64,000 nucleotides of DNA from contig JAMWFC010000115.1 of assembly GCA_027475525.1 (NCBI GenBank), positions 372,001 to 436,000 on the forward strand. Reading direction: 5' to 3'. The translations under genes were made by a program, and so were the position numbers. Positions 21,934 through 48,632 of the stretch are shown in pieces. The notes below the pieces were generated by a model. That model ran no database searches. It was not told the DNA's origin and saw only the letters and a list, made by a program, of their open reading frames with translations. Origin of the DNA: Macrolepiota albuminosa (Eukaryota; Basidiomycota; Agaricomycetes; Agaricales; Agaricaceae). The number at the start of each line of letters is the position of its first letter. Positions within the stretch are counted from its first letter, which is position 1.

Positions 21934-27039
<5,106 letters not shown>

Positions 27040-31048: not shown

Positions 31049-31371
31049 TGTAGCAATCTTAAGTAATTGTACCTCAGTTCACCGTAAAGAACTCTGTTGA
31101 CCTGTAGCAATCTTAAGTAATTGTACTACAGGGGAAGTAAGTATCGGTAGGTAAATGAGTAGTAATATGGACGTACCCTCAGTTCACCGTAAAGAACTGA
31201 GGGAATATCTATATATGGTAAGTATTTTATACGACGGTCAAGAGGACTGTGGCTGAGATACTGTATAGTCACAATCGGTGACGATCGAGCTTGGTGGGGA
31301 AAGAAACAAAAAAGGAAATTCACATAATATAGCCGAACGCCGCCGCCACAGCTGAGAGTCGTCTTCCAACA
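31049..31371 (-). repeat. copia 3' LTR with 54-bp internal duplication
   Basis: The last 269 bp (31103-31371) align with the whole 5' LTR (48364-48632). The outer 54 bp (31049-31102) repeat the LTR terminal 'TGTAGCAATCTTAAGTAATT' followed by a piece of LTR sequence, so this copy is enlarged. Both LTRs end in TG...CA. The outer end abuts target duplication ATAGT, which shows that the enlarged form is the true element boundary. Confidence 0.85.
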
Positions 31372-31380
31372 CTCCCCCAG
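31372..31380 (-). other. copia polypurine tract
   Basis: On the minus strand CTGGGGGAG lies immediately before the TGTTGG start of the 3' LTR, the expected place and composition for plus-strand DNA priming. Confidence 0.75.
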
Positions 31381-31382
31381 AC

Positions 31383-33516
31383 TCAAAGCTGCGGCTGGAG
31401 GTCCAACAGCCCGACGAGGCGTTCGTGGCAGGGATGGGAAAGAGGCTTGGTAAAGAGGTCGGCGGGATTTTCGATAGATGGAATGTGCACGACATTGATG
31501 TCTCCTTTCTTGACACGTTCACATATATAATGGTGTCGAATGTCGATGTGTTTGGCTCGCGCATGTCCTTTGGTGTACTGAGCAAGGGATTGTGCCGGGG
31601 AGTTGTCAACATGGATGACCGCAGGGAGGGTTTGAGGTAAGTCGACGTCCAGCAACCAGTTGAACATCCACATGGCTTGCTGAGCCCCTTGGGACAACGC
31701 CATGTACTCGGCCTCAGTGGTGGATAGCGCAACCGTGGGTTGTCGTTTTGAGCTCCAGGATACGGCTCCCCCGGCCATGGTGAACACGTATCCTCCAGTA
31801 GATCAACGGGTGTTGAGGTCTCCTCCATAGTCCGCATCAACGTATCCAATGGGCTTAAGGTTTCCTCCTTTGTAGTAGGTTATGCGGTAGTCCAAAGTCC
31901 CGTTCACATACTGCATCACGTGGGCCAAGGCCTTCCAGTGAGCAGGTCTGGGATTACTTTGGAACCTTGCCAGTAGGCCTACGGCATACGAGAGGTCGGG
32001 TCGAGTCGCCGCTTGTGCCCACATCAACGATCCCAGGGCCTTGCGGTAAGGCTTATCCTTCATGTATTGGATGTCAGGTTTGTTCAATGGGGATGGATAT
32101 TTGGTTAAGACAATTCCAGCAGGGAGGGGTGTCGATTTCGGGTTTGATGAGCAAAATCCAAAACGTTCCAGCATTCTCTCAAGATAAGGGTGTTGGGATA
32201 GTGAGATATCACCAGTTCTCAGGTCCCTGTCAAACCTTACTCCCAGTATGTACTTGAGTTCCCCCATGTCCTTAATCTCAAACCTAGATCCAAGTTCATC
32301 TTTAGCCTTTTGTGCTCCCCTGTAAGTCGTTGAGGCTCCCAGAACATTGTCGTTGTAGTTGTCCGTGATTGTGTGTTCCCTTTCAGCATGCTTGTAGCGA
32401 ACGCAACTGTCTGCTCGAGATGCTAAGTACCCTAGCTCGTCATAGGTCCTGTCCAAGGTGTTCCACCAGTTGTGACCACCTTGCATGAGACCGTACAGCA
32501 TTTTCTTGAGGTGTAGAACCTTTCCCTCCCCCCCTCGGAAAGTTGGAGGTGGTCTCATGTACACTGTATGTTCGAGCTTGCTGTTGAGATACACGGAGGT
32601 AAAGTTGACCTGCCAGACATGCATTCCCAAGGTTGCTGCAATTGCCACAGTTATCCACATGGATTCCAACCGAACCACCAAGGCGTACGTTTCGTCGAAA
32701 TCCTTGCCCTGCACCTGGGTGTACCCCTTTGCAACCAGTTGTGCCTTCCGTTTCGCAACATTTCCCTCCACATCAAACTTATTCGCGAATACCCACATGC
32801 AGTCGACAACCTTCTTCCCTTCAGGTACATCCTCCACATTCACAATGTCCCAGACCTCCTTGGCGTCCATGACCTTCAACTCAGCTTCCATCGTGGGTAC
32901 CCACAGATCTGGTCGTTGGATTGCCTCCCAGTAGTTCTTGGAGACCTGGTACTCAGGGTCATCCGTTTTCAGGGCCAGGAACGCAAAGGCAGAGGCAATC
33001 AGTGCCTCTGGCGCCTCCTCACCTGCCACCCACTCTTCACCAGCATCCCTCGCCGCAGCCTGCAAACCCAGGGACTCTCAAGATTTGATGATGGTGTGGG
33101 TAGGACGTACCATTTGTGATGAGCGTCGCAGTGGAGGTACCGCTTCTGGTGGTGGTGCAACCACCAGCTCAGCATGAAGAGGGCCGTCAGTTGGGTGGAT
33201 TCTCGGGGCAACCTGTTGTCTCGGGTATGGAATAGTAGGGGTAGTTGTGTCAGTGAGTAGCTGGGCAGTGGATATCAAGTCATCCTCATCAGGGAAAACC
33301 AGGGTTTGGTGGCCGGTACCCTCCTCGAAGATTATGTCCTGGCTAGCGACAATGATGCAAGCATTTTTATCGTAGAGTTGGTAGCCATGGCTCGAGTATC
33401 CAATCATGACGTATTTGACCGATCGAGGGTCAAGTTTTGATTTGATGAGCTCCTTGGGGACCCTGGCATATCCGACGCATCTGAATGGACGTAAGTGACC
33501 TATATCCTGCTTCCGC
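31383..33516 (-). pseudogene. copia integrase C-end, reverse transcriptase and RNase H
   Basis: Continues the polyprotein after the gypsy insertion. Integrase C-terminal part ('CVGYARVPKELIKSKL') runs to an in-frame TGA at 33078-33080. RT follows from about 33065: 'WVFANKFD', 'QLVAKGYTQVQGKDF', 'QVNFTSVYLN' (relatives have Asp where Asn stands), and the catalytic YVDD box reads YNDN. 'YILGVRF' and 'GSLMWAQAATRPDLSYAV' follow. RNase H begins with 'YVDADYGGD' and, after an in-frame TGA at about 31801, continues 'GGAVSWSSKRQPTVALSTTEAEYMAL', ending at 31383. Loss of active-site acidic residues means no RT activity. The stops are single-codon nonsense with the frame otherwise intact. Confidence 0.9.
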
Positions 33517-34467
33517 TGATGACGCCCAAAGTTTGGTCAGCAACAAATGTAACAATTGTGTTACCGTACCAAGAGTGTGCGTTGGGCGCGCTAAAAGTAA
33601 TTTGAGGAGTCCCGGGCAGGTCCCAGAGAACGCGCCTATAAAAATGAGGAAAGTCGGTAACGGGGTCGGCAAGTGTCAAGCGCTAAGGTAAAGCGCCTAA
33701 GGAAAATGCGGTAAGTGAACACGGCAATGTGAGCGGCAAGAGCACGATATGCTTAGCGAAGTCTAAGCGTCGATAATGCCTGCCGTAGTTGCAAGGCGCG
33801 AGTATGTCGAGTGTTGGCGAACGTCTGCAACTGCCGATGAGTTTTGACGTTGCCGACCGTAGCGTGAATGAGCTCTTGAGCGTAAGGGAGACTGAAGTAA
33901 GTGGGGGAAACTGTGGTCTATTCGTCTCCTCCTTGTATGTACAAGTCGGTAAGTACTTTATATACTACAAGGAGTTCACCGTCGCCAGTGACCAACCATC
34001 GCCAAAGTGCGGTAAACTGGAAAATTTCATAGGGGTAGCTCCAACGGTTTCCGATCCCTACCGTCCTTTGAGGACCCTTGGCGCCACCAGGCAGCAGATC
34101 GCGGTACTAAACCATCAATCCATCACCCTTCTGTCTGTCAGAACACCTAAGCGACGTTGGGCGCCAAATCGAGACGGTAAGCGGTGTCAGACGCCAAGGT
34201 CAAACGCCAAGCTGTCCGTCAGTTTTTGATAGATCATCAAGCTTCTCGCTAAGCGCTGTCATCAGTGACTGATGCCATCTGTCAGTTGTCATTCCTGCTG
34301 CCGTCGGCGCTATCATTGATTGGATCTGCTTCTTGCCGTGCGCGGCCGTCGGAAATGGCTTAAAATGGGTAGAACGCATGCGCTAAGTTCGGAACGAGTG
34401 CGGCAAGGTTTCCAGAGCCGGTGCCGAGCCTGCCGTTGATGCGCCTAACCTGTATGGGGTCCTATCA
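33517..34467 (-). repeat. gypsy 3' LTR
   Basis: 951 bp, TG...CA ends (TGATGACGCC at left, CCTATCA at right on the plus strand). Differs from the other LTR at three A/G positions. I counted 23 CGSYAA hexamers (both strands) in this copy. A 141-codon open frame on the plus strand is probably fortuitous. Confidence 0.95.
33637..33964. promoter_or_regulatory. oppositely oriented TATA boxes in the gypsy LTR
   Basis: TATAAAAA on the plus strand at 33637-33644 faces the antisense gene; TATATAAAG on the minus strand at 33964-33956 faces the direction of gag-pol. The same pair is in the other LTR (44215-44222 and 44542-44534). This suggests a bidirectional LTR promoter: gag-pol from the right LTR, the accessory gene from the left one, about 980 bp upstream of its ATG. 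Confidence 0.5.
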
Positions 34468-34476
34468 TCTCCCCCC
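34468..34476 (-). other. gypsy polypurine tract
   Basis: Minus-strand GGGGGGAGA directly adjoins the TGATAGG start of the 3' LTR, as required for plus-strand priming. Confidence 0.8.
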
Positions 34477-34641
34477 AACTGAAAAATTGACTGTCCTCAG
34501 TCACCAAATAAGGCTACCGTTACCGCTTTTGTGACAAGTGGTCCGTGCGTTCTTGAGATTTGGTTTATAGTCCTGGCGCATGAGTGTGGACTTCGTTTCT
34601 TCTCCCCATTTTTTTTTTTTTACCTGGCGCTTAATATTAAA

Positions 34642-37061
34642 ATGTCTTTCCGCATTCCAACTCCGCCCCCCGTTCCTTCTCGCGAGGCTCAAGACGCTGC
34701 CTCTTCCTATATCGCCAAGGCCAACAACTTTATCAAGCGCATCGAGGGTGTGGGCGCGGAGGCGCCTTCAAACTTGGTGATCGCGGTAATGAAGTTGTTG
34801 GAGCGCTGGTACGAGGTCCGTGTCCTTGGCGTAGGCTGGGACAGGGAGATAGAGGTGCGGGAGTGGTGCCGGGCGCGCTATGTGGATAACCGTGGCGCGG
34901 AGTGGTTAGCTCCATTTTCTCGTTTTGTAAGTGCTTTCAAGTCCTTGCCGTGTCGCCAACTGATTGGGTCCCTAGGCGCCTCCTGCCGTCCCTACCATCG
35001 AGGACGAGTTGGAGGATATCTTGTCGGGTGCCTTGCCGATGACGGTAAGCGCTCCCGCGCCTGAGTAAGTAACTCTGATTTTTATCTCTAACTTAGCTGT
35101 GGTCTGACCTGTCGCCTCATAGCAAGCAAGAGGTGTTGGCGCCCCTGGCGCGCATGCAGGTGGAGGAGGAGATCGCGACACGGCAAGAGGAGGTTTCCCG
35201 CGACTCCCGTGAGATTATGAGGGGGCTAGAGGAGCGGGAAAGAGCAGCAGCCTTGGCGGCGGAGATGGAGGAGATTGCGGAAGGAAAGGCGCCTGCCGCC
35301 AAGAGGCAGGAGACTGAAGAATCCGGCAAGGTAGGTCGCGCCGGCAGCACGTCGAGCCCAGTGCTGCCGGCTAGCAAGTCGGGCTCGCCGAGGAAGCCGG
35401 CAGGTGCTTCCAAGCGTAAGGTAAGTGCTGATTTTCGCTTGCCGTTGCCGACGGTCGCTAACGACCTTCGCAGAGTCGCAAGGCGGCTCCTCAATACGCG
35501 GTAAGTGGTCTTTTCTTTTTGTACGGAAATTACTAAGTCTTTGTAGGCGCCAACACAAAGCTCCTTTGACGACAAGGAGCTCAAAGGATTGTTGTTGCCG
35601 CGTCGTGAGGAGGCAGTCCTTGATGAGGGGCAAGAGGCCGGGGTCGTTATGGAGGAGATGAAGGGAAAGAAGACCGTTTCCCTGGCGACCCGGCAAGCGT
35701 TCAAGGAGGCGCGGGGAGCGGTAAGTGATTTTTTCTGGTTCCTTTAGTTTCTTGCTGACTTTTAGCGCTAGTGCGACAAATGCTGGGCGGACAACGACCC
35801 AGAAGGCTGTTGGTTCCCGACTGGGGCCCAGCCGTGTTATCGTTGTGGCGCCCTCAAGCGCGCCTGTACTATCGACGGGGCGAAAAGTCGCGAGCGTGGC
35901 GGCGCGCCAGATGCTTTGGTCGAGAAGACGTTCTCGCGCGCTGTGTTGGTGAGGAGGGCCAGGGAGTTTGTGGAGGGCCAGAAGAGGAAGGTTGCCACAG
36001 GAGGGATGGCGGCCATTGGACGTGCCTCCTTGGCGTTGCCGACGCGCCAAGGAGATGGGACGGAATCAGTCGGCAATCGAGGCGCCGGCGAGCGCCAAGG
36101 GACTTCGGTCCCAGAAAAACGTCAAGCCCCTTCCCCAAGCAAAGGGAAGGGCAAAGCAAAGCGCCCTCGTGTGGTCTCGTCGTCGCCTTCCCCCTCGCCA
36201 ACGCCTCGCGATACCGAGATGGCCGACCTGGAGAAGGCGTTGGCGGCGAGTCGCCTGCCTCCTCGCGATTCTGAGGCAGGCCCAAGTGGCCTCCTGTCGC
36301 CTATTCATTTGGCGGCGAGGTCCCTTGGCGAGGAGCAGGAGGAGGGAGAGCGGGAAGCGGTTGGCGACACGGCGCCTCAAGAGGAACGGGAAGAGGCTCC
36401 CGTCGACATCGAGATGGGGGAGGAGAAGGCAGAGGGAGCGGCAACGGGAGGAGATGAGGACGCTGAAGGGGAGGAGGACGAAACCTTGGCGACGCAGCGC
36501 CAAGGTGACGAGGAGATGGTAGCGGGAGAGGGCAAGGGAGAAGGGGAGGCAGCGGCAGAAGTCGCCCGGGAGGAGCCTCAGTGGCGTTGGCTGCCGCCTT
36601 ACGGCAACGTCGCCCCTTGGGAGGTGTCAGATCCTGAGGACGTTGTAGGGCTGGAGCCAAGGCGTCCCGTGATCGCCAGGGTTAATCCTGCCTGGACCCC
36701 GCAGCCGCAGCCGACAGTGACTGGCGACGCTTTCCAGTGGCTGGGCCAGGACCTCGTTTACCCGGTTATAGCGCTCAATCCTCGCGACATGTTGGAGCGC
36801 TATTCCCGGAGAGCGGCAACGATGGAGGCGACTATGAGTCGGGAACGGGAGCGAGTGCGCGGTCAACTGATGGCGCTGCGACTGCGCTATTCCAACCTGG
36901 GTCGTAGCCTTCGCGTGCTTCGCGATTACCAGGGGGATTGCCAAGCAGCCATGGATTGGCAAGCTGCCAATAACATTCTTCCTGGCGACCTTCTCCCCCT
37001 TCGCGACTCTTCCTTGCCGGTATCTGACGATTCCCTGTCATTAGAGGACGATAGCGAGTAA
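34642..37061 (+). CDS. antisense accessory gene of the gypsy element, Zn2Cys6-like protein
   Basis: Runs opposite to gag-pol inside the element. Six exons: 34642-34926, 34976-35064, 35123-35420, 35474-35500, 35547-35720 and 35772-37061, all GT-AG and phase-consistent, total 2163 nt, 720 residues. Residues 1-120 are globular-looking with 'LVIAVMKLLERWYEVRVLGVG'. Residues about 136-180 form a charged coiled coil. Cysteines at 292, 295, 304, 313, 316 and 323 give C-x2-C-x8-C-x8-C-x2-C-x6-C, close to a fungal Zn2Cys6 cluster and followed by basic residues. Then come a basic patch 'KGKGKAKRPRV', a long Glu-rich acidic region (about 450-540) and a C-terminal block with 'RERERVRGQLMALRLRYSNL'. No catalytic domain recognised. 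A DNA-binding or regulatory role is inferred from the cysteine pattern plus the acidic region. The 27-nt exon 4 is a microexon. Confidence 0.85.
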
Positions 37062-37140
37062 ACGGACCTTAGCGTAGATAGGCCGTTTTTGTATATTTTT
37101 CTTTTTGTTACCGTCTCATATATATTTGTCTTGCCGCCTC

Positions 37141-37141
<1 letters not shown>

Positions 37142-37191
<50 letters not shown>
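37142..37191. repeat. homopolymer of 50 T (poly-A on the minus strand)
   Basis: Fifty consecutive T on the plus strand, between the end of pol (37526) and the end of the antisense gene (37061). Read in the gag-pol direction it is a poly(A) run downstream of pol. It could be a captured mRNA tail or a slippage tract; its true length is uncertain from short reads. Confidence 0.9.
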
Positions 37192-37192
<1 letters not shown>

Positions 37193-37525
37193 AGTGAAAA
37201 GATAAGTCCCAGAAACCTGAGTTAGCGCAACAGCCGAGAGCCAAGAAAGTAAGGCAAAGAGAAAGCAAGCGGTAAGTATTCGAAAGTAAGAGGAGTAGTA
37301 GATGTGGGACTTAGACAAATTTTTGAGAAAAGGGAAACGCTCAGTAAATCATCATGGCGAAAAACCCTTGGCGAGATTTGCGCAATGCGCTAAGCGTTGG
37401 CGACACGCTAGCGCTGCGACTTGACTATGTAAAGAATTGTCTGTTGGATATAGTACAGTAAGTATCGGCAAGAGAGATAAGTAAGATAGGTAATAGAAAA
37501 AGAGAGCTCATCAATATATTCTTTT

Positions 37526-40500
37526 CTAATCATTTTCTTCTTCTTCAACTAAAGTCGGCAAGTCATCATCGTCCAATAATTCTGTTTCTTCAAGTTCTCG
37601 TAACTTGGCGGTGTCGATATCTAGCGCTTCAAGCGGCAAGTCGAGTCGTTCCCTGGCGAGATACGGTAGTAGGCGAAAAGCGGCAACAGGTCGATGCAGT
37701 ACTGAACCATCTAGTTCACAGAGCACGTAAGCGCCTCCACGGTTACGGGAGATAACTACCAAAGGTCCAAGATAGCGCGGGCGCATTTTCTTGTTGTAAG
37801 AGGTCTCGATTTTGGAGTTGCGCATGAGCACTAGCGCTCCTCTCGGGAAGTTGTAATCTTTGATGGTGGCGCTATGCTCGGTTTCGAATCGTAGGGCTGC
37901 TTGGCGACGGGCGCTGAAGACTACCTCGTGGAGTCGCTCTAAATCTTCTTTCCTTCTTTGGAGATCAATAGCTCGTCTGGCGACAAGGTCGGTAGTCGCT
38001 AAGATACTGTTGGGTGCTGGCTGAAGATAGGTCGCTTCTATAATGTCGGCAGGGAGTAAAGGATGGGTGCCAGTAGCCGCGTAGTAGGGAGAGCAACCCA
38101 TGCGCTTACGAATAGTAACTCTTTCCGACCAAAATACTGAATAAGTCGCTTCACTCCAACGAGACTCGTCGCCATCGACTGCCTTAAAGAGCGCTTGCCG
38201 AACGTCAAAATGTGGTCTCTCTACCAGGCCATTGGCGCGTTTGTTATAGCCAGATACTCGAATGTGATGGATATTGTATTTCTTGGCGAGGTATGTTAGC
38301 GCTTTGATGATGGGCGCACCGTTATCCGTGACGATTTCCCTTAGCGCTCCCCAACGGCAAATGACGTCTTCAAATAGCCACTTGGCGACCGCGTCGGTAT
38401 TTTCTCTTTGAAGCATTCGAAATTCAGGCCAGTGGATTAGCGAGCAACGACCTTGAATGATGTACTTGTAGCGACCAGACTTGGGCATATGCATGGTGTC
38501 GACGTAGATTTTGCTGAAGAGGGGAGCTGGCGTGGCAACGGTTGGCGGTATGAGCACTTGGCGCGTTTGTTGAATCTGGCAGAGGTGGCAAGTCCTGATG
38601 TACCAGGCGATGTCGGCGCTAGCGTGTGGCCACCAGAATCGTTCTAGCAGAGAAGCTCGGGTAGCGTACAGACCTCTATGACCTAGCTCATCATGCATAG
38701 CGCGCAAGACTCGTAAGCGACCTTCTGGCTTGATGATCAGCTTGTGAGCGCCATCTCGATTGCGTCGCCAAAGGCGGTTGTCGGTAAAGAAGAAGTGGGT
38801 GGCATATCGGATAAAGGTCGCGTACTGTTCGTCGGTAAGGTCGGCGGGTCGCTTAAGGTCTTGTAGCCATTGTTCAACGAGTAACAAGCGACTGTCTTCC
38901 GCCTTTGCCTTGGCGGATCGGGGAACGGCGTCGTAGGTCAGGTTTTTGCTGTCTTCTCTTAGCGACTGGGGTTCCTGTACGACTTTTACTGGAGGCAAGT
39001 CTTGTTTAAGGATGCTTGCCGTGTAGAATGTGAGGGGTGCGCTAAAGGTCTCGGGGCGGTAAGGGACTATGGGATGTAAAAAGATAGGATGCTTGCCGTG
39101 TAGAATGTGAGGGGTGCGCTAAAGGTCTCGGGGCGGTAAGGGACTATGGGATGTAAAAAGATACTGGTAGGCTGTTGCCGTCGTAGTAGGGGGATTGGCT
39201 GTTGTATGAGGTGCACGAAACCATGTAAGCGGTCGATCCAGTCCTCGAAATCGCTATCAGCCTGTGGATCCACTGCCGGGTTATGAGGTGCACGAAACCA
39301 TGTAAGCGGTCGATCCAGTCCTCGAAATCGCTATCAGCCTGTGGATCCACTGCCGGGTCGCCAGGCTGTCGTGGTCGCCTAGAGAGTCCATCTGGGCCGT
39401 GGAAAGAGCTCTTGACGTGTACCAGCTCAAAGTGAAACATGAGGATGGCGACTACCCACCGGTTCATGCTAGCGGATGGCTGGATATCGGGATTCTGCAG
39501 CATGCCTTTGATGTACCTAGCGTCGACCTCAACTATAAGGTTCCGCACGCCAATCAAATACATCTTTAGCGACCGGAAGGCTTTGAAGAGTCCATAGAGC
39601 TCTAGCTTAGGCTGACTGTAGCGAGACTCTCTGTCGTTTAGCGTGATGGACCCAAAGCGGTTGTAACGTCGCTGTTTCCGATTGTCGCTAAGGCACTGGC
39701 ACAAGAAGTAACCAACGGCAATGTACGAGGTATCCACCGCCAAGATAACAGGGTCGGCAGATGTATAATCGATGGGGACTAGGGGCTTGGCGTCTTGTAA
39801 GGCTTTTACTAAGTCGCGTTGGGCAGTGACCTGGTCTGGCCCAAATTCGAAGAGCTCGTTAGCGCGGGTGAGTCGGTTAAGGGCGTGTGCGCGATGAGCA
39901 AAGTTTTTGACGAATATTCTAAGAACGCCAACGGTACCAAGAAAGGCGCGAACTTCTGATAAGTCGCGGCAAGGACCCCAGCGCTCCAAGAGTGCTAAGC
40001 GAGACTCGTCGGGAATGCGTCCGTCGGGAGTGCAGATGTGACCAAGTATCTTGAACCTTGGCGCGCATAGGAGAAGCTTATGGCCGCTAAAGGTTCCACC
40101 GCTATACTTCATGCGTTGGAGAACTCGATTGAGCAGCAAGAAAAACTCCCATAGCGCTAAGCGAATGTTGGAGTTGTCGGGATGGGTCGCCGGTAAGCCG
40201 TTCACGAGTCGCCAGTCTTTGGGGCCTTTGATGCCAACGTCGTCGATGAAGCTAAGGACGTTATGCGGTATCTCGGGTTGGAGGATGAAAGTGATGTCGT
40301 CGTGGAATATAGGGACTGAGTTGGTCCAGCCCATCGGCAAGGTGACTAGGCGCAGTGCGCCAAACGGAGTTTGAAATGTAGTGAGGTCGCGGGAAGAAGG
40401 GTGAATCAAGCGCTCGTCGTAGCCAACGTAGAGGTCAAGGGTGGCGCCACAAATACGCCCGGCAAAGGACTCGGCAACGTGGTCAGGGAAAGGCGGTACG

Positions 40501-41429
40501 CCAGAGTGTCGTATGGTGACTCTATTTAGCGGCTCGAGACTATGGACTATGCGTAGATTGCCGTTCTTTTTGAGGACACAAAACCAACGGGAGCGGTAAG
40601 AGCTGTTAGAGGGTTCGTAGACGCCAGCCTGTATCTTGGTCCTAATAATCTGGCAGACCTCGGCTTCAATCCCAGGCGGTAACGGTCGGTTGTGCTCAGT
40701 CCACGGCACGTGAGGAATGGTCGGGATGACGACTGGCGGGAAGAAGTCCGTACGTAGGCTGCCGCGTTCTGAGTCCTCCCAAGCAAAGGCTTTGTCTTGC
40801 TTAGCGACGAGATCGGTAAGGACATTTAACTCATCTTTGGTCAAAAATCCCGTGTCGTGCTCCTTGGCGAACTGCTGCTGGCGCTCCGCGGTAAAACGTC
40901 CTGTGGGCTGAAAGGGTGGCGGATTTGGTGACAAGGTCGGTATGTCGGCAAGAGGGTCGCCAATGATCTGGCGCTCGATTCTGAAAGTCTCGGGAGAGTG
41001 CGTAGCGATGGGTTTTGTTTTAAGCGCAACTGGCTTATATTTCTTTTTAACTTGAACCCCTTTCCTTTTGGGAGCGTTAGCTTGGTTATATACAGAGGTG
41101 GAAAGGGGAACTGTAGCCTGAGGAGCGGCAAGTCCAAGAACGGCAGGAGACGAGGCTCCGGGAAGAGTGGTAAGATAGGTATCGGTAGACGCAAAACTTT
41201 GAAACGATTCTGAGGCGGTAAGATATAAGTAGGCAAGAGAGGAGTCGGTAATATTTTGATTTTTCTGGGAAGGCTCTGCGTCGGTAATGGGTAAAGTAGT
41301 TAAAACATCTTCGTCAAGAAAAGCAGTAGACAAAACAGTTACAAGACCAGTTGAATGGTCAAATTCCAGCGTTAGCGCCACATCTCCGTGATCATCGCCA
41401 ATCACCTCCTCGATGGTCTGTGAAAACAC
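37526..41429 (-). CDS. gypsy pol: reverse transcriptase, RNase H, integrase
   Basis: Starts in the -1 frame relative to the gag end (overlap 41402-41429), as expected for programmed -1 frameshifting. RT has 'LPMGWTNSVPIFHDDI' and the catalytic box 'FIDDVG'. RNase H has 'VILAVDTSYIAVGYF' and 'RESRYSQPKLELYGL'. After two 77-bp duplications (39009-39163, 39205-39358), which split the frame, the integrase has an H-H-C-C zinc site ('HDELGHRGLY', 'CHLCQ'), DDE residues in 'VDTMHMP', 'VTDNGAP' and 'GLVERPH', and a GPY/F-type module 'PRYLGPLVVI'. No chromodomain seen at the C-terminus, which ends in an acidic tail. Collapsing both duplications rejoins the halves into one frame, so the protein is probably intact. 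Confidence 0.92.
39009..39163. repeat. 77-bp tandem direct duplication in gypsy pol (first)
   Basis: 78 consecutive positions (39009-39086) match at offset 77. Splits the pol frame between RNase H and integrase. Confidence 0.92.
39205..39358. repeat. 77-bp tandem direct duplication in gypsy pol (second)
   Basis: 39205-39281 and 39282-39358 are identical, exactly 77 positions. Lies only 41 bp from the previous duplication. Confidence 0.92.
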
Positions 41430-43840
41430 CGGTGGGGTCGTTCGTTGGCGTGCTGGTCGGTAAACTCCGGGGGCTTAGCGCGGGCGCCTTTTCGTTGTCC
41501 CCTAGGGAACGTTGGCACCGTTCGTCGGATTCCGGAATTTGGGTCGCTAATTGTGAGGGTCGTTTCCTCGTCGGTAACCGTCTTGACGACTGATCGCGCC
41601 AAGACGTCGAAGGGTCTGCCCAGTAATAAGTCGTATGCTGGGGAGCGTAAGATGTGTATCTGAAGGTAAAATGTAATGTCGCCAAGGGTGCATGGCACGT
41701 TCTTGGCGAGGCCTAAAGATCTGTCCACTGTACCGTTAGCGCTCTGCATGTTTAGTATCACCGTAGGGTCGTAAATGAGGCCTAGATCGTTAGCGACTTC
41801 TGCTGCCATAGAAATAATCTGAGACCCGCTATCCACGATTGCCTCTACTTCGTGCTTGTTGTCTACGGTTAGCGCTACTGAGCGGATAGCGTGTGATTCT
41901 TGAGCGACGGTAAGGATGGCGGGGTCCTCTCCATGGTCCACAGATCTAAGGTAGGTCTCCACTGGGTCCACCGAGGTGGCGTTAGCGATGGGGTCGGCAA
42001 GAGGTTCATTGGTGTCGGGAGCGTCGATGGTAACAGAGAAACCAGGAAGCGCATCGTCTAGTTCATCAACCTCGGCAACGGCTGTCGCCAAGGGTCGTCG
42101 AGGAGTGACTGCCGTTTTGACCTGGTTGCGGACGTCGGGAGCAATACTACAAAGCTCTTCTACTGACAAGGTGACGGCGGTTTTCATAATACGGTTGAAG
42201 ACGTGGTTGGATTTCTCTATGTCGAAAATTGGCGCAGTAGGTCGGTAGCCACCCTCAGGACGTTTCTCGGGAGCGGCAAAGTTTCGTTGTGCGGGAGCGT
42301 GATAACGGTCGGGAATCCCTGAATAGGGATGGAGAGGCGGCAAAGGCGGTTCGGGAGCGGTAGCGGACGACGAGGGTTCTGGTGCAGGTGCAGGGGCAGT
42401 AGCGGGCGGTGCGGCAGGAGCGGGAGTCGGTAACTTGCTAGCGGGAGGCATCGGCTTATACCCTTTAAGAGGTTGTTTGGGCTGCTTAACTTCAACCCCA
42501 TCAAAAACCTGATTCTTCAGCGAATCCAATTCCTGCTGTAGCTTGGCGATCCGCTCTTCACGCGAGAAGGTAGAACGGTCGCCAACGCTGTCGAAGTGTA
42601 AAACCTCGTGAATCATCTGCTGTTGAGTCGCCTGGTCTGGGTCGGGGTTGGCGTTGCCAGATAGCGTGCCGGTAACGATTTGTCCTGGATTGCGCCTATG
42701 CCATTCATCAACTCTCTCCTGGAAGGACTTCTTGTCGGGGTAGTTGGGAATGGTGGCGCCAGAGGTAAGAACTATCTTGCCGTCGATAGCCCTTCGAATT
42801 CTCCCTTGCCGAATATAATTCTCTAAAGTCGCGCAGCGTCCTCGAGTCATAGTGTGGCCAATTTCCCCACAGAAGTGGCAAGGGCCAGGTGCGGGAACGT
42901 TAGCGGGTCGGTTAGCCGTGAGGTTGGTGGTAATCATAGTTTCGATGCGAGTCATGGCGGAGGCGACAGCGGCGGTAATAGCAGCATTGAGCTCTTCTTT
43001 CTTAACGAAGTCGGCAACAGGAGGCGGGATGGGAATGATACCGTTAGTTCGCTCAGGGGGTGGGCTCGTCCTAGCGCGCTGCAGTCCAACGCCAGTGTCC
43101 GTTCCCTTGAGAACCCATTTACCGGCTTCAAAGACGTCGGCAACGTTATAGGGCTCGTCAGGGTGATGGGCCTGATGAACTATCTCTAGGCGACGGGCAA
43201 TACGAGTCCACAGTGAAGTCGGGATGCCCTGCTGAAATAGGCGACGCTCCTCGTTAATATAGAGCTTGCCGTTCTGCAGGAGCCACCTAGCGATTTTCTG
43301 GAACTCGCGGTAATACGTAGAGAACGCGCCAAGCGACGATGTGCCACTGTCGAAAGATTCCTGTACTAGTTTCTGTAACTCGTTTACCGTGTATCGGGTA
43401 GCCTCCTCGGCGCCAGGGTACAGCTGGATAACTGCCGTCTTCCAGTCCTCATACGAAGCGCCTTGAGCTGGAGCTGGCGGTGCGGCAGGGACAAAGGCGG
43501 CAAACTCGGTAAGACCTGTCCACGTCTCTGCCGTGTCATACGATACGTATCTTGCCGCGTACTCCTTCATCTGCGTGTGGTCGGTAATGTTACAATCTCT
43601 GAATAGATACTCCAACTCCTTGAAATACTGGGAGAGCTCCCGTGGCTTGGTCTCGTCCCATTTCGGTGCCGAGAAGTGGTTGCGTGGCGGCATGCGCTGG
43701 ACTTGTTGTTCCATAGCGACTGTGTTGGCGAGTTCGGTTAGCGGTAATGGGGAAGGAGTTCTAGAGACTGGCGACGGGGTAAGAGAAATGAGTTGAGAAA
43801 GAGGCGTTAGCGGAGTAATGGGGGTGATTGGTTGCGGCAC
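41402..43840 (-). CDS. gypsy gag with zinc knuckle and aspartic protease
   Basis: Capsid-like helical region ('WDETKPRELSQYFKELEYLF', 'FSTYYREFQKIARWL', 'IPTSLWTRIARRLE'), then a CCHC-type knuckle 'CHFCGEIGHTMTRGRC' (the last spacing is x6 instead of x4), a Pro-rich linker, and a retropepsin-like domain with the active-site motif 'VDSGSQ' near the C-terminus followed by 'LLLGRPFDVL'. The frame is open from 43840, but the first in-frame ATG I see is at 43714; an upstream non-AUG start is possible. Ends at 41402, overlapping pol by 28 nt in a -1 relation. The frame is otherwise undamaged, in contrast with the host copia. Confidence 0.9.
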   Translation of the reverse strand: MPQPITPITPLTPLSQLISLTPSPVSRTPSPLPLTELANTVAMEQQVQRMPPRNHFSAPKWDETKPRELSQYFKELEYLFRDCNITDHTQMKEYAARYVSYDTAETWTGLTEFAAFVPAAPPAPAQGASYEDWKTAVIQLYPGAEEATRYTVNELQKLVQESFDSGTSSLGAFSTYYREFQKIARWLLQNGKLYINEERRLFQQGIPTSLWTRIARRLEIVHQAHHPDEPYNVADVFEAGKWVLKGTDTGVGLQRARTSPPPERTNGIIPIPPPVADFVKKEELNAAITAAVASAMTRIETMITTNLTANRPANVPAPGPCHFCGEIGHTMTRGRCATLENYIRQGRIRRAIDGKIVLTSGATIPNYPDKKSFQERVDEWHRRNPGQIVTGTLSGNANPDPDQATQQQMIHEVLHFDSVGDRSTFSREERIAKLQQELDSLKNQVFDGVEVKQPKQPLKGYKPMPPASKLPTPAPAAPPATAPAPAPEPSSSATAPEPPLPPLHPYSGIPDRYHAPAQRNFAAPEKRPEGGYRPTAPIFDIEKSNHVFNRIMKTAVTLSVEELCSIAPDVRNQVKTAVTPRRPLATAVAEVDELDDALPGFSVTIDAPDTNEPLADPIANATSVDPVETYLRSVDHGEDPAILTVAQESHAIRSVALTVDNKHEVEAIVDSGSQIISMAAEVANDLGLIYDPTVILNMQSANGTVDRSLGLAKNVPCTLGDITFYLQIHILRSPAYDLLLGRPFDVLARSVVKTVTDEETTLTISDPNSGIRRTVPTFPRGQRKGARAKPPEFTDQHANERPHRCFHRPSRR

Positions 43841-44073
43841 GGTAAAGGGCGACGCTAAGGGGTCGTCGGCACTATAATCGAGGGAATGCGGGAAGAGATC
43901 AGGAAAAGCGTCTACAGTGGCGTTCTGTAGTTCCTGGGCTAGAGAGAGACCCGGTAAGGCACCAGGTGGTTGTGGAGTTGATGGGTGGGAAGGAGCTATG
44001 CCTTCTGCCGACTGATCTAGCAGGCGGCGCCTACGCTGGAGACGGGTTTCTGGCGGAATTCTGCCCTAGAGAT

Positions 44074-44091
44074 CCCTCGCGGTGGGCTCCA
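44074..44091 (-). other. gypsy primer-binding site
   Basis: Minus-strand TGGAGCCCACCGCGAGGG begins 3 nt inside the 5' LTR and starts with TGG, the complement of a tRNA CCA end. The tRNA identity was not determined. Confidence 0.7.
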
Positions 44092-44094
44092 ATT

Positions 44095-45045
44095 TGATGA
44101 CGCCCAAAGTTTGGTCAGCAACAAATGTAACAATTGTGTTACCGTACCAAGAGTGTGCGTTGGGCGCGCTAAAAGTAATTTGAGGAGTCCCGGGCAGGTC
44201 CCAGAGAACGCGCCTATAAAAATGAGGAAAGTCGGTAACGGGGTCGGCAAGTGTCAAGCGCTAAGGTAAAGCGCCTAAGGAAAATGCGGTAAGTGAACAC
44301 GGCAATGTGAGCGGCAAGAGCACGATATGCTTAGCGAAGTCTAAGCGTCGATAATGCCTGCCGTAGTTGCAAGGCGCGAGTATGTCGAGTGTTGGCGAAC
44401 GTCTGCAACTGCCGATGAGTTTTGACGTTGCCGACCGTAGCGTGAATGAGCTCTTGAGCGTAAGGGAGACTGAAGTAAGTGGGGGAAACTGTGGTCTATT
44501 CGTCTCCTCCTTGTATGTACAAGTCGGTAAGTACTTTATATACTACAAGGAGTTCACCGTCGCCAGTGACCAACCATCGCCAAAGTGCGGTAAACTGGAA
44601 AATTTCATAGGGGTAGCTCCAACGGTTTCCGATCCCTACCGTCCTTTGAGGACCCTTGGCGCCACCAGGCGGCAGATCGCGGTACTAAACCATCAATCCA
44701 TCACCCTTCTGTCTGTCAGAACACCTAAGCGACGTTGGGCGCCAAATCGAGACGGTAAGCGGTGTCAGACGCCAAGGTCAAACGCCAAGCTGTCCGTCAG
44801 TTTTTGATAGATCATCAAGCTTCTCGCTAAGCGCTGTCATCAGTGACTGATGCCATCTGTCAGTTGTCATTCCTGCTGCCGTCGGCGCTATCATTGATTG
44901 GATCTGCTTCTTGCCGTGCGCGGCCGTCGGAAATGGCTTAAAATGGGTAGAACGCGTGCGCTAAGTTCGGAACGAGTGCGGCAAGGTTTCCGGAGCCGGT
45001 GCCGAGCCTGCCGTTGATGCGCCTAACCTGTATGGGGTCCTATCA
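44095..45045 (-). repeat. gypsy 5' LTR
   Basis: 951 bp, identical to the 3' LTR except three transitions. It should drive gag-pol transcription leftwards; a TATATAAAG box faces that way at 44542-44534. Confidence 0.95.
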
Positions 45046-46488
45046 CCGCCCCGTCCACTTCTCCTCTGGTATGATGTCTGGGTGCCAAGCTGACGGCAGA
45101 AGGTTTTGAGTGTAAATGATAGTAGAAGTGGCCTCAGCCCACAAACTTTTCAGCAATCCCGTCTCGGCAAGCAAGCAGCGGACTCCATTGAAGACAGTGC
45201 GAATCGATTGCTCCACAACCCCATTTTGGGCGTGGGCATAGGGCACAACCATCTTCATTTCGATCCCAGTTTCTCTGCAAAAATCGTGCCATAGGTGATT
45301 CACCCACTCTCTCCCTCCATCCACCTGGATAGTCTGGACTTTGTTTCCAGTCTGTTGTTCAGCCTCCAGCGTGTATGATTTCAGGGCGGCAAGAGTCGTG
45401 GCACCTGATTTATTCGCCAGGTAGGAAGCCTGAAGACGGGAAGACCCAGCATCAGTAAACATCATGAGATAGAGAGCGCCTCCGAGAGAGATAACAGTTG
45501 ATGGTCCCCATAGGTCTATGTACACCTTTGTCCCAGCGGTCTGAACATCCTCTGATGCCCCATCAAACGGTCCTGTGGTATGTTTTCCATATATGCAATC
45601 CTTGCAGAGCCCTGGTGCATCTGCTGTCCCTTTCAGGTAAAACCCGGTGCCCAAACTTCGCATCCCCAAACTCCGAATTGTCTGGGCATTTGCGTGCCCA
45701 AAACGGCAGTGCCAGGTATTTATTCCAACCGGTTTGTTCAGCGAACTCGCCACTAAAGCTTTGATTACATGTTTGGGTGTTGTGAGGGCCACTCCAGGCT
45801 TCTGCGTGTGCGTATTTGAGATGGGAAGGAGGTCCAGGAGGTACATTCGATTCATCTTCTTACCCTCCATGAAGATGCTTCCTGACAGGTCTTGGAAGTA
45901 CGCCTTCCCTCCTTTGAATAGGACAGAGAAGCCCAAGTTGTCAAACTTTCCAATTGAGACCAGATTGGCCGCAAGGTCAGGGGTATGGAGGGCCTTACTA
46001 AATACAAGGGTGGACGTGCGGCCATTTATGTTTACGATCTTTCGCACTGTTCCTGTTCTCAAGATGCTAAACGTCCCTCCTTGATTTGCAGCAACTCCTT
46101 TGTGGGGAGTTTGGTATTGCTGGTACTCCTCGAAGTCATCTTGTTTGACAAAGCAGTGATCCATTGCTCCCGAGTCGGCATAACTGGCAGGACTCCCCCT
46201 AGCTCGGAGGGCAGCCATATTTGCTGAAGCCTCTACTCTGGTAAGGTAGCTGTCGAGAGGTTCTAATTTCTCGTTGTAGACTGCTGCTGGTGTGAATGGA
46301 GTGGCCACCATTAATGCGTACATTGTCTGGTTGCTCGTGGTCATGCTCACCATGTTGGCGGCAGGAGTCTGTGGTTGAGTGGAAGCGGGGAAGTTTCCCC
46401 CCGTTGATGAGCCTGCATCGTGGCTGGCTACTGATAGCACCAATACCCACACCTTGTATAAGCCCACTAGTACCACCAGAAGCGCCAC
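45046..46488 (-). pseudogene. copia protease and integrase region
   Basis: Continuous frame holding the protease motif 'YADSGAMDHCF', then 'LVSIGKFDNLGFSV', the integrase zinc site ('WHCRFGHAN', 'CKDCIYGKH') and the catalytic core: 'VYIDLWGP' (Asp), 'IQVDGGREW' (Asp) and 'NGVVEQSIRT' (Glu). These three acidic residues are conserved. The frame is cut by the gypsy insertion right after 'EEKWTGR' and resumes at 33516, so the polyprotein cannot be made. Upstream it is separated from gag by a 0.9-kb insertion. Confidence 0.9.
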
Positions 46489-46489
46489 G

Positions 46490-47404
46490 CTCTAGCGCTT
46501 CCAGCGCTATTTTTCTTATATTTTTACACTAATAACTCACAGCTACAGACTCCAATTACTCTCAGACCACTTTTTATGGCACCACTTATTCTTCGCACCA
46601 CTATTGACACCTCGCCGCACCTTGCCACTTGCACTTCAAGGCTATACATTTACACAGACACTTGGCATCAGTCAATCCAGCATAATGCTCTTAGCCAGTG
46701 GCAGCGCTTACAAGGGGAAATGATGAAGTATTTCCGTGACAGCATCATTATGGACCTTTTTACTATACAATTCAATTCACCACATTTACTTACATTTTTA
46801 TCAGTTCACCACCCTCTAGCAGCGCTTAACCTCTTAGCGTCGGCTAACTTTCTTTACTATAAATACCTACTTTTTGTTAGTAGTACAGGGAATCAATTTG
46901 GCAGTAGGGATCGTATCCCAACATTTTGGTCTCCATACGCAACAGACTACCTCTTGTTGACCATGTCAAGCAAGGGGACTCTGCTCTAGTTTTCTATATC
47001 TCTCTCTCTCCATACGCAACAGACTACCTCTTGTTGACCGTGTCAAGCAAGGGGACTCTGCTCTAGTTTTCTATATCTCTCTCTCTCTAGCACCTTGCAA
47101 CTACGGCTTGGCTTTCGTGCTTAGATCCGCTAAGCAATCTCATCCTTTTATTATCATGTTCTAGGTGCTAACACTTAGCGCCTCTTAGCGACCCTTTCCT
47201 GCACCTCTTAGCGCCTTTCTTAGTGACTTTCCCATGCTCTTAGCACTCCCCCTTAGCAACTTTTAGCGCCCTGTAGCCACATTTTGGAGCCTTACGCAAG
47301 TGCCTCCAATCATCCACTTTCCTTGCCACCAACCTCTTGCCTACCGTGTGTTCTCTGGGACCTGTCCAGGACTCTCTCACACACTTAGCACGCCCAAAGC
47401 TATA
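46490..47404. mobile_element. 0.9-kb insertion in copia, possible solo LTR rich in TTAGCG
   Basis: Interrupts copia between the zinc knuckle and protease regions. No coding content. TTAGCG or CGCTAA occurs six times, five of them within about 47127-47267, the same word family as the Ty3/gypsy element nearby, suggesting an LTR or fragment of a relative. The exact ends and target duplication are unclear. Contains one of the 77-bp tandem duplications. Confidence 0.5.
46930..47087. repeat. 77-bp tandem duplication with one mismatch
   Basis: 46930-47010 match at offset 77 with a single A/G difference (46963 against 47040). Ends in a short CT run. Same period as six other duplications. Confidence 0.85.
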
Positions 47405-48316
47405 TCAGCTAAGTAGCTGCACTAGTGATAGTCCACACAGCATCCAGCTCGATTTGGGTGTTATCACCGTTTGAGACGATCCTGGCAACCCCGTATTCTT
47501 TCGCCGTCTGAAATTTGGAGGGAACTGTCCCTCTTTTCCTCCACCTTTCCAGTAGCAATTTTTGATGGCATGACCGGTTCTGCCACAGTTTGAATTTATG
47601 CACACGAGTTTCTTCTGAGGTTGGGATGTTTTGGTGAACAAGGCAGTCAATGTAGTACCCGCTGACAACAATCATTCCTTTATCCTTTCCCAGTGGACTG
47701 TGAGTCCTGCAACCAGTTCAATGGATGTTTTGGTGGATTGGAGTGACGCCACAATATAATCCCATGAGGCGGGAAGGGACAAGATAATTATAGCTTGGAA
47801 TTGGTTGTCCTTGAGATCAGCTCCTTTTTCGACAGCATTGTTCCATTTTAGGCGGAGGTCAGTGACGTGCTCTGAGAAGTCCATTCCATCCGTGTATTTT
47901 GTAGCCCTTAATGCATTTTTGGCAGAATTTGCTCCTAGATCAGAGATTGTGCCGTAGATTTTCTTCAGTGTGGACCAGGCCTTTGCCGCCATGTTGGTCA
48001 TTTTAATCCTGAGCCCAATGGGATTTTTCGAGTTGTAGACAATTAGAGCCAGCGCCCACGCATTTCTTACTCACCATTCTTGGGCTGATGGGGCTCTGTC
48101 CCACCACTCAGTTGCGAGAGGTGTTGGTATAGTCTTGGATGTTGGCTCCATGATGGTGCTGTCAAGGTATCCTTCCGCGCCCTTGAGCCATGCGGCAAGT
48201 AATACTCTATCTCTGAAAGTAATGTAGTTTGTGCTGTCGAAAAAAAATTCATCAGGGAAAGTGGGAGGGTTACTATTCCCTCCAGTAGTAGTAGTAGCGA
48301 CCGTTTTGACCGACAT
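47405..48316 (-). pseudogene. copia gag relic
   Basis: ATG at 48316 starts 'MSVKTVATTTTGG' with 'FPDEFFFDSTNYITFRDRVL', typical of copia Gag. After an early stop near 48071 the frame resumes with 'WALALIVYNSKNPIGL' and 'DFSEHVTDLRLKWNNAVEKG'; after another break comes the nucleocapsid knuckle 'CINSNCGRTGHAIKNC'. At least two frame breaks make it non-functional. Confidence 0.85.
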
Positions 48317-48363
48317 TTTTGCGTGTGTGAATTTTTAAAGAGCGCTTTTCAGGGCCTATAACC

Positions 48364-48632
48364 TGTAGCAATCTTAAGTAATTGTACTACAGGAGAAGTA
48401 AGTATCGGTAGGTAAATGAGTAGTAATATGGACGTACCCTCAGTTCACCATAAAGAACTGAGGGAATATCTATATATGGTAAGTATTTTATACGACGGTC
48501 AAGAGGACTGTGGCTGAGATACTGTATAGTCACAATCGGTGACGATCGAGCTTGGTGGGGAAAGAAACGAAAAAGGAAATTCACATAATATAGCCGAACG
48601 CCGCCGCCACAGCTGAGAGTCGTCTTCCAACA
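48364..48632 (-). repeat. copia 5' LTR
   Basis: 269 bp, TG...CA. Followed inward (minus strand, from 48363) by GGTTATAGGCCCTGAAAA, a probable primer-binding site. Contains an 8-bp perfect inverted repeat CCTCAGTT/AACTGAGG around 48437-48464. Outer end abuts target duplication ATAGT at 48633-48637. Confidence 0.9.

Follow-up and report, generated by a model that had tools for sequence, protein, structure and literature searches.

A selected antisense gene and a pervasive CGSYAA word in a Ty3/gypsy retrotransposon of Macrolepiota albuminosa

Introduction

How can a gene with several introns live inside an LTR retrotransposon, and what might its product do for the element that carries it? The question was raised by a locus of Macrolepiota albuminosa within the 64,000-nucleotide stretch analysed here (the window; contig JAMWFC010000115.1, positions 372,001 to 436,000). 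A preliminary description of this DNA had proposed an intron-rich gene on the strand opposite to gag-pol and had taken its product for a Zn2Cys6-like protein that might regulate LTR transcription or counter host silencing. To our knowledge, it is an open question by what means LTR retrotransposons of high copy number evade methylation in fungi. We examined the element, the gene and the composition of their DNA in the window, and copies of the element and of the antisense gene were searched for within the source genome of about 100 Mb.

Results

The host element and its surroundings

The antisense gene lies within an element whose Pfam matches fall in the order gag-PR-RT-RH-INT between two LTRs, the order of Ty3/gypsy retrotransposons (Table 1). 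The LTRs, with TG..CA ends, are 99.5% identical over 958 bp (blastn), and the element is flanked by a 4-bp CCGC site duplication and contains a G-rich PPT-like and a PBS-like stretch. No Pfam match to RVT_1 or rve within the element reached E 0.001. Its RT and INT show approximately 25% alignment identity to those of two other gypsy-type elements in the same genome, and a comparison of the integrase with viral contigs found no relatives. Gag contains a zinc-knuckle-like CHFCGEIGHTMTRGRC stretch. Loci L053 and L054 represent a second abundant gypsy-type family, with Integrase_H2C2 matches of about 85 bits.

Table 1. Features of the Ty3/gypsy element and exons of the antisense gene (window coordinates).
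Feature	Position	Strand	Basis or remark
Ty3/gypsy LTR retrotransposon	33517-45045	-	LTR match, ends, site duplication, PPT/PBS-like stretches, Pfam domains
3' LTR	33517-34467	-	951 bp; 23 CGSYAA sites, 24/kb
Antisense gene	34642-37061	+	ATG to stop; between integrase and 3' LTR
Antisense exon 1	34642-34926	+	splice model, copy alignment
Antisense exon 2	34976-35044 (to 35064 in 720-aa model)	+	splice model, copy alignment
Antisense exon 3	35097-35420 (from 35123 in 720-aa model)	+	splice model, copy alignment
Antisense exon 4	35474-35500	+	splice model, copy alignment
Antisense exon 5	35547-35720	+	splice model, copy alignment
Antisense exon 6	35772-37061	+	Cys6 cluster at start, basic patch, acidic stretch, long C-terminal helix
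Integrase part of pol	37526-39118	-	Integrase_H2C2 (Pfam)
RT and RNase H part of pol	39144-41474	-	RT_RNaseH (Pfam); frame broken beside 77-bp duplications
gag and aspartic protease	41402-44065	-	gag-asp_proteas, DUF4100 (Pfam)
5' LTR	44095-45045	-	951 bp; LTR match and ends

The insertion site of the gypsy element is a Ty1/copia element (31100-48632) bounded by LTR-like repeats of 272 bp that are 98.9% identical (31100-31371 and 48361-48632). A run of 50 T residues, which is poly-A on the gag-pol strand, occupies 37142-37191 in the gap that separates the ends of INT and of the antisense gene. The window also holds an ORF at 25441-27039 with 3-dehydroquinase and shikimate dehydrogenase domains (Pfam) that probably belongs to a pentafunctional ARO1-like gene. 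Tandem duplications of 77 bases occur in the window at 25397, 28855, 39009, 39205, 46930 and 56139, two of them at or near the frame break in pol. There were 61 duplications of this period in 329,390 bases (window and loci L009-L055) and at most three for each other period from 30 to 199; they look like an assembly artefact (k=77).

The antisense gene is probably spliced

Six exons and five predicted GT-AG introns of 46-58 bases join into an open frame from ATG to stop. Splice rules allowed 78 open chains, and the two top models encode 722 and 720 amino acids. They differ solely in intron 2, which spans 35045-35096 in the 722-aa model, where every intron is in phase 0, and 35065-35122 in the 720-aa model. 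Because the swapped stretches are about equally conserved (0.83 vs 0.82), we make no choice between the two. The six exons, the GT-AG introns and the 720 codons of the preliminary description were thus recovered on recomputation, with the 720-aa product tying with one of 722 aa. Its placement of the gene opposite gag-pol and between pol and the 3' LTR agrees with the minus-strand Pfam domains and the mapped LTRs. It is reasonable that the introns of such a gene can survive retrotransposition, because the genomic RNA is that of the other strand.

Copies of the gene are maintained as protein-coding sequence

The genome search with the antisense gene scored 98 of 1240 candidates, and the copies compared were the 40 best-scoring of the 99 listed matches (L009-L048, where L009 is the window copy). 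An intact spliced frame was present in 26 of these 40 best places (27 of 41 rows, L009 duplicating the window row). This count is the union of 18 of 41 rows found intact with fixed coordinates and 24 of 41 with free splice sites, the latter check having missed three of the 18 (L021, L022 and L025); since the 40 places are the best rows, the genome-wide intact share may be lower. The start codon was kept in 39 of 41 aligned rows and the splice signals in most. As counted by eye, the matched portion of exon 6 was free of stop codons in 70 of the 99 listed matches.

The pattern of insertions and deletions relative to the window copy was examined in 40 rows. In exon 6, 63 of 64 indels were multiples of three. 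The corresponding counts for introns 1 to 5 were 1/15, 2/19, 6/38, 4/32 and 0/45, or 13/149 together. The short exons were less clean: 6/19 in exon 1, 3/5 in exon 2, 46/57 in exon 3, 11/22 in exon 4 and 1/4 in exon 5. The exon 4 value is in part due to one group of copies whose acceptor lies two bases on. The median dN/dS of exon 6 was 0.09 (680 pairs with dS >0.1, from copies other than L009, L023 and L030). Among 24 of the 27 intact rows (all except L009, L038 and L048), dN/dS was 0.095 in the coding frame and ranged from 0.195 to 3.0 in the five other frames. The exon 6 indels and the low dN/dS indicate that the antisense protein is maintained.

The position of the gene beside integrase was equally consistent. 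At all 44 places fetched with the gene (L009-L052, the window copy included), the end of integrase adjoined it on the other strand with an identity of at least 0.895; in L023 and L030 the antisense gene was partial. Viewed from the integrase side, with 48 of the 99 antisense-gene matches and 38 further rows as input, 48 of 81 scored copies had the antisense neighbour and 33 lacked it among the matches listed. A pass by eye through all listed rows found no further neighbour for these 33, and one of them, when read in sequence, retained only the last 29 codons of the antisense gene. No same-strand arrangement occurred among the typed integrase-side rows. The antisense gene is therefore genuine, under selection and carried by the element in many copies. 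On these points, namely further copies antisense beside integrase and purifying selection, the preliminary interpretation held; its Zn2Cys6 label did not, as described below.

The gene is an island of divergence on a recombining backbone

Distances between copies differed markedly along the element (all copies but L009, L023, L030 and L049-L052). Mean dS was highest in exon 1 (1.0) and the last third of exon 6 (0.92); the other parts of the gene had values of 0.39-0.63, and two parts of INT had 0.25 and 0.23. The LTR distance had a median of 0.086 and a mean of 0.153, and that of the 5' UTR a median of 0.074 and a mean of 0.084. Mean distances were 0.26-0.53 in the introns of the antisense gene and 0.133 in the stretch that follows it. 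The island is bounded close to the two ends of the gene. Of 276 pairs formed by intact copies, 265 had a higher dS in the antisense gene than in INT (0.55 vs 0.24).

The distances of different segments were weakly correlated (Spearman -0.11 to 0.47). Individual copies are mosaics: L034 matches the window copy at 100% identity in exons 1-5 and at 79% where exon 6 ends, and L010 has 100% identity in exons 2-6 and 87% in exon 1 (exon 4 was not scored in either). In L052, INT is 98% identical in residues and the antisense protein approximately 50%. Because of the patchwork copies and the weak correlations, it appears that old types of the antisense gene are moved about by recombination on a backbone that is itself younger.

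The antisense protein does not match canonical Zn2Cys6 proteins

The protein has six cysteines at residues 294, 297, 306, 315, 318 and 325, which gives the spacing CX2CX8CX8CX2CX6C exactly as first described. The spacing of Zn2Cys6 domains is CX2CX6CX5-12CX2CX6-8C. We considered and rejected assignment to this class by spacing, since the first loop of the window protein has 8 residues rather than 6. The loop of 8 was also found in all 28 proteins with the full pattern among 63 examined (62 search matches, many of them partial, and the window piece). The protein had no Pfam match to Zn_clus at E<=5, and neither did 27 members at E<=1, which gave ten unrelated weak matches only; no Pfam family was found for the antisense protein. 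The hhalign probability against five yeast Zn2Cys6 domains was 0.3%. These results speak against the Zn2Cys6 label. A search of PDB sequences with a profile of the protein returned no match at E<=10.

Structures were predicted for a 684-aa Termitomyces homologue and for exon 6, with mean pLDDT values of 50.7 and 56.5, respectively. Helices are the chief confident parts, located mainly at 125-192, 393-420 and 599-666 in the homologue and at 48-75 and 337-399 in exon 6; the Cys stretch has a pLDDT of about 30-40 in both models. The Cys stretch was the best kept part in three of four distant types (L049, 97%; L051, 98%; L052, 80%), with L050 as the exception, its N part (94%) and C part (90%) being better kept than its Cys stretch (80%). 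In an alignment of the Termitomyces proteins, most of the nearly invariant columns are in or beside the Cys6 stretch. Separate searches found 17, 22 and 56 homologues, all from Termitomyces (Agaricales); two of them (those with 17 and 56 matches) were limited to the roughly 8000 candidates with the most shared words and may have overlooked distant relatives.

From its sequence and the predicted models, the antisense product is probably a nuclear, DNA-associated protein in which a conserved Cys6 cluster is combined with basic patches, one acidic stretch and long coiled-coil helices. We infer the nuclear role from these features. It is a fair guess that it is a zinc-binding DNA reader of a kind other than Zn2Cys6.

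The element is saturated with a six-letter word

We counted all six-letter words in the element without prior bias. Apart from A-runs, the top words were CGGCAA, CGGTAA, CGCTAA and CGCCAA, or CGSYAA. The word has 201 sites in 11.5 kb (33517-45042), one per 57 bases, whereas an order-2 Markov model predicts approximately 32. The LTRs hold 24 sites per kb, gag 17, INT and RT 16 and the antisense gene 15. Outside the gypsy element the density per kb is 0.9 to the left and 1.7 to the right, and in the two other gypsy elements of the genome, which have like CpG and higher GC, it is 1.7 and 3.3. A cluster of five sites within about 140 bases was noted at 47128-47268, on the copia side and outside the gypsy element.

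Shuffling the codons, with the encoded protein and the codon usage preserved, did not reproduce this density. The antisense gene, INT, RT and GAG have 28, 25, 37 and 44 sites; the means of 500 shuffles each were 7.9, 4.6, 8.2 and 8.2 and the maxima 15, 10, 17 and 15. Four of four element genes thus lie beyond all shuffles, compared with none of seven other ORFs in the window. A scan of every six-letter word against codon shuffles placed all four CGSYAA words within the nine listed for each of RT and GAG; INT and the antisense gene each had two of the four in their lists, and five control ORFs had none. In the two other gypsy elements we found no saturating word of their own, the best words being milder and at or slightly above the shuffle maximum; in the L053 and L054 family, CCCGGA and CCGGAG were mildly in excess, slightly above codon shuffles. 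One piece of the surrounding copia element showed a mild excess of CGCTAA (6 vs 0.8 expected).

The word is also conserved between copies. Its density is kept in the LTR, antisense gene and INT of 38 rows, with a few LTRs lower; it is absent from the LTR of L018 and L025, whose LTR stretch does not align and which were left out of the LTR counts for motif changes and CpG decay. The distant antisense genes of L052, L050, L049 and L051 have 29, 34, 33 and 39 sites, and dinucleotide shuffles of these four gave means of 4.6-5.8 and maxima of 10-13. At CGSYAA sites the word was kept in 0.85 of copy cells, compared with 0.40-0.78 for eleven control patterns. At motif position 3 there were 7 distinct site-changes over 83 majority-motif sites vs 110 over 342 non-motif CG[CG] sites, the majority rules of the two sets being slightly different. 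CGSYAA is kept by selection throughout the element.

Both strands carry the word (102 vs 76, p=0.06), and for this reason CGSYAA fits a word of double-stranded DNA rather than of RNA. There is a weak hint of a preferred pair spacing of 12-13 bp, with 15 pairs where 6.0 were expected and a maximum of 17 in 2000 random placements.

CpG sites decay in the copies

The decay of CpG sites, one of which is part of CGSYAA, was examined in the rows other than WIN, L027, L038 and L048. Singleton transitions amounted to 0.28-0.30 per CpG site vs 0.08-0.12 at other C/G sites, a 2.5- to 3.5-fold difference. Transversions at CpG were not raised in LTR and INT and were raised 1.7 times in the antisense gene. 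The decay in copies L009-L048 roughly fits what methylated CpG would be expected to cause, in line with silencing of the methylation type. No sparing of motif CpGs was found: C>T changes were present at 37 of 83 motif sites vs 142 of 342 other CpG sites. This result argues against a lasting protection of the copies now in the genome.

Discussion

What could connect a selected antisense gene with a word written throughout the element that carries it? Our best explanation, which we hold tentatively, is that a protein encoded by the element, most likely the antisense product, reads CGSYAA as double-stranded DNA. By reading it across LTRs and genes, the protein would mark the whole element as self. 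The benefit would be a resistance of the element, in trans, to silencing of the CpG-methylation type, similar to that conferred by VANC on the VANDAL elements of Arabidopsis, which are DNA transposons. The antisense strand would be the place where an intron-bearing gene can survive. We infer both the link between the protein and CGSYAA and the anti-silencing role; against them stand the lack of a match between the Cys cluster and any known DNA-binding family in Pfam, PDB sequences or hhalign comparisons and the low confidence of its predicted models. The saturation with CGSYAA makes the original guess of a regulator of LTR transcription or of silencing more plausible. A stronger form of the proposal, possible though doubtful, is that this is an LTR retrotransposon with its own sequence-specific anti-silencing, in which the protein of a spliced antisense gene reads a word written about 200 times, coding regions included, so that the whole element would serve as an address label.

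The rival to which we give the most weight, while considering it unlikely, is that the word has another reader, such as the Gag nucleocapsid, integrase or a host factor, that for example collects or shields the element cDNA, and that the antisense protein acts otherwise. The spread of CGSYAA over the whole element, LTRs included, would suit a factor that coats cDNA or DNA, and the zinc-knuckle-like CHFCGEIGHTMTRGRC stretch of Gag offers a candidate. However, the near-equal use of the two strands runs counter to a word for RNA packaging, and a host factor should have shaped other elements as well, whereas the two other gypsy elements and the two copia ORFs examined are not enriched.

The divergence of the gene could alternatively reflect an autorepressor or immunity factor directed against co-resident copies, such that rare types gain and old, diverged types are kept on a recombining backbone. 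The excess of antisense over INT dS in nearly all pairs of intact copies, the low median distances of LTR and 5' UTR, the weak correlation of segments and the half-identical protein beside a nearly identical INT in L052 are all as this idea would have it. Yet the Cys pattern and CGSYAA are common to the types examined, no separate recognition groups are visible, and the low dN/dS reveals no push toward protein change. We regard it as improbable.

Still less credit can be given to the possibility that the richness in CGSYAA is a by-product of mutation or codon usage without any reader. An unusual word composition can arise by drift in any family, and one copia piece has a mild excess of CGCTAA. 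A by-product of this kind is difficult to reconcile with the shortfall of codon shuffles in four of four genes, with the highest density of the word in the noncoding LTR or with its conservation site by site, even though its CpG is highly mutable.

That the antisense RNA is the functional product, through dsRNA and RNAi, with the protein incidental, is very improbable: such a function is suggested for plant antisense ORFs in the passages cited (PMC7264820), but for the present gene RNA alone is contradicted by the dN/dS of 0.09 and the 3n indels of exon 6, and an RNA role may exist in addition to the protein.

Taken together, gene and word look like a self-recognition system that may help the element to remain active. 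Because this family combines an antisense gene under selection with a DNA word written into the element, it leads to directly testable predictions on the reader, the word and the effect. No prior description of this antisense gene or of CGSYAA saturation was found in the titles and abstract openings of open-licence papers.

Comparison with known systems

Among fungal elements, the brtn gene of Boty-like elements was reportedly described by Zhao in 2011. Boty-like elements of Botrytis carry brtn as an additional antisense gene, according to the passages cited (PMC8365987, PMC4227169). As far as these descriptions allow comparison, both cases are fungal LTR elements with an extra antisense gene, and the same passages do not mention motif saturation.

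The closest resemblance in gene arrangement is to the aORF-3R genes of plants, such as Grande gene23, RIRE2, Retand TRP28 and PvRetro13, as outlined in the passages cited (PMC7264820, PMC11963269). There, too, the gene lies between pol and the 3' LTR on the opposite strand in most copies, and the products are in some cases nuclear or suspected of binding DNA. Unlike those described there, the present gene is fungal, has five predicted introns, encodes a Cys6 protein without known relatives among them and resides in a word-saturated element. Our proposal would also suggest what the antisense genes of plant LTR elements may do; the passages cited (PMC7264820) assign them no established role.

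With regard to mechanism, TET/JBP dioxygenases are carried by fungal DNA transposons, with none found on a retrotransposon in the account given in the passages cited (PMC12730594). The likeness lies in a transposon-borne counter to silencing by methylation in mushrooms, which is proposed there; unlike the Cys6 antisense protein, TET/JBP is described as an enzyme. VANC, the nearest mechanistic model, binds a short word that has accumulated in its own VANDAL element, and the element loses methylation, as stated in the passages cited (PMC5735166, PMC10398659). The parallels are the accumulated short word, here CGSYAA, and the diverging types. In those passages the VANC word is in noncoding tandem repeats, whereas CGSYAA is scattered over coding and noncoding sequence. 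Unlike VANDAL, the element described here is a retrotransposon with an antisense, intron-bearing gene, whose product would be the putative reader of the word.
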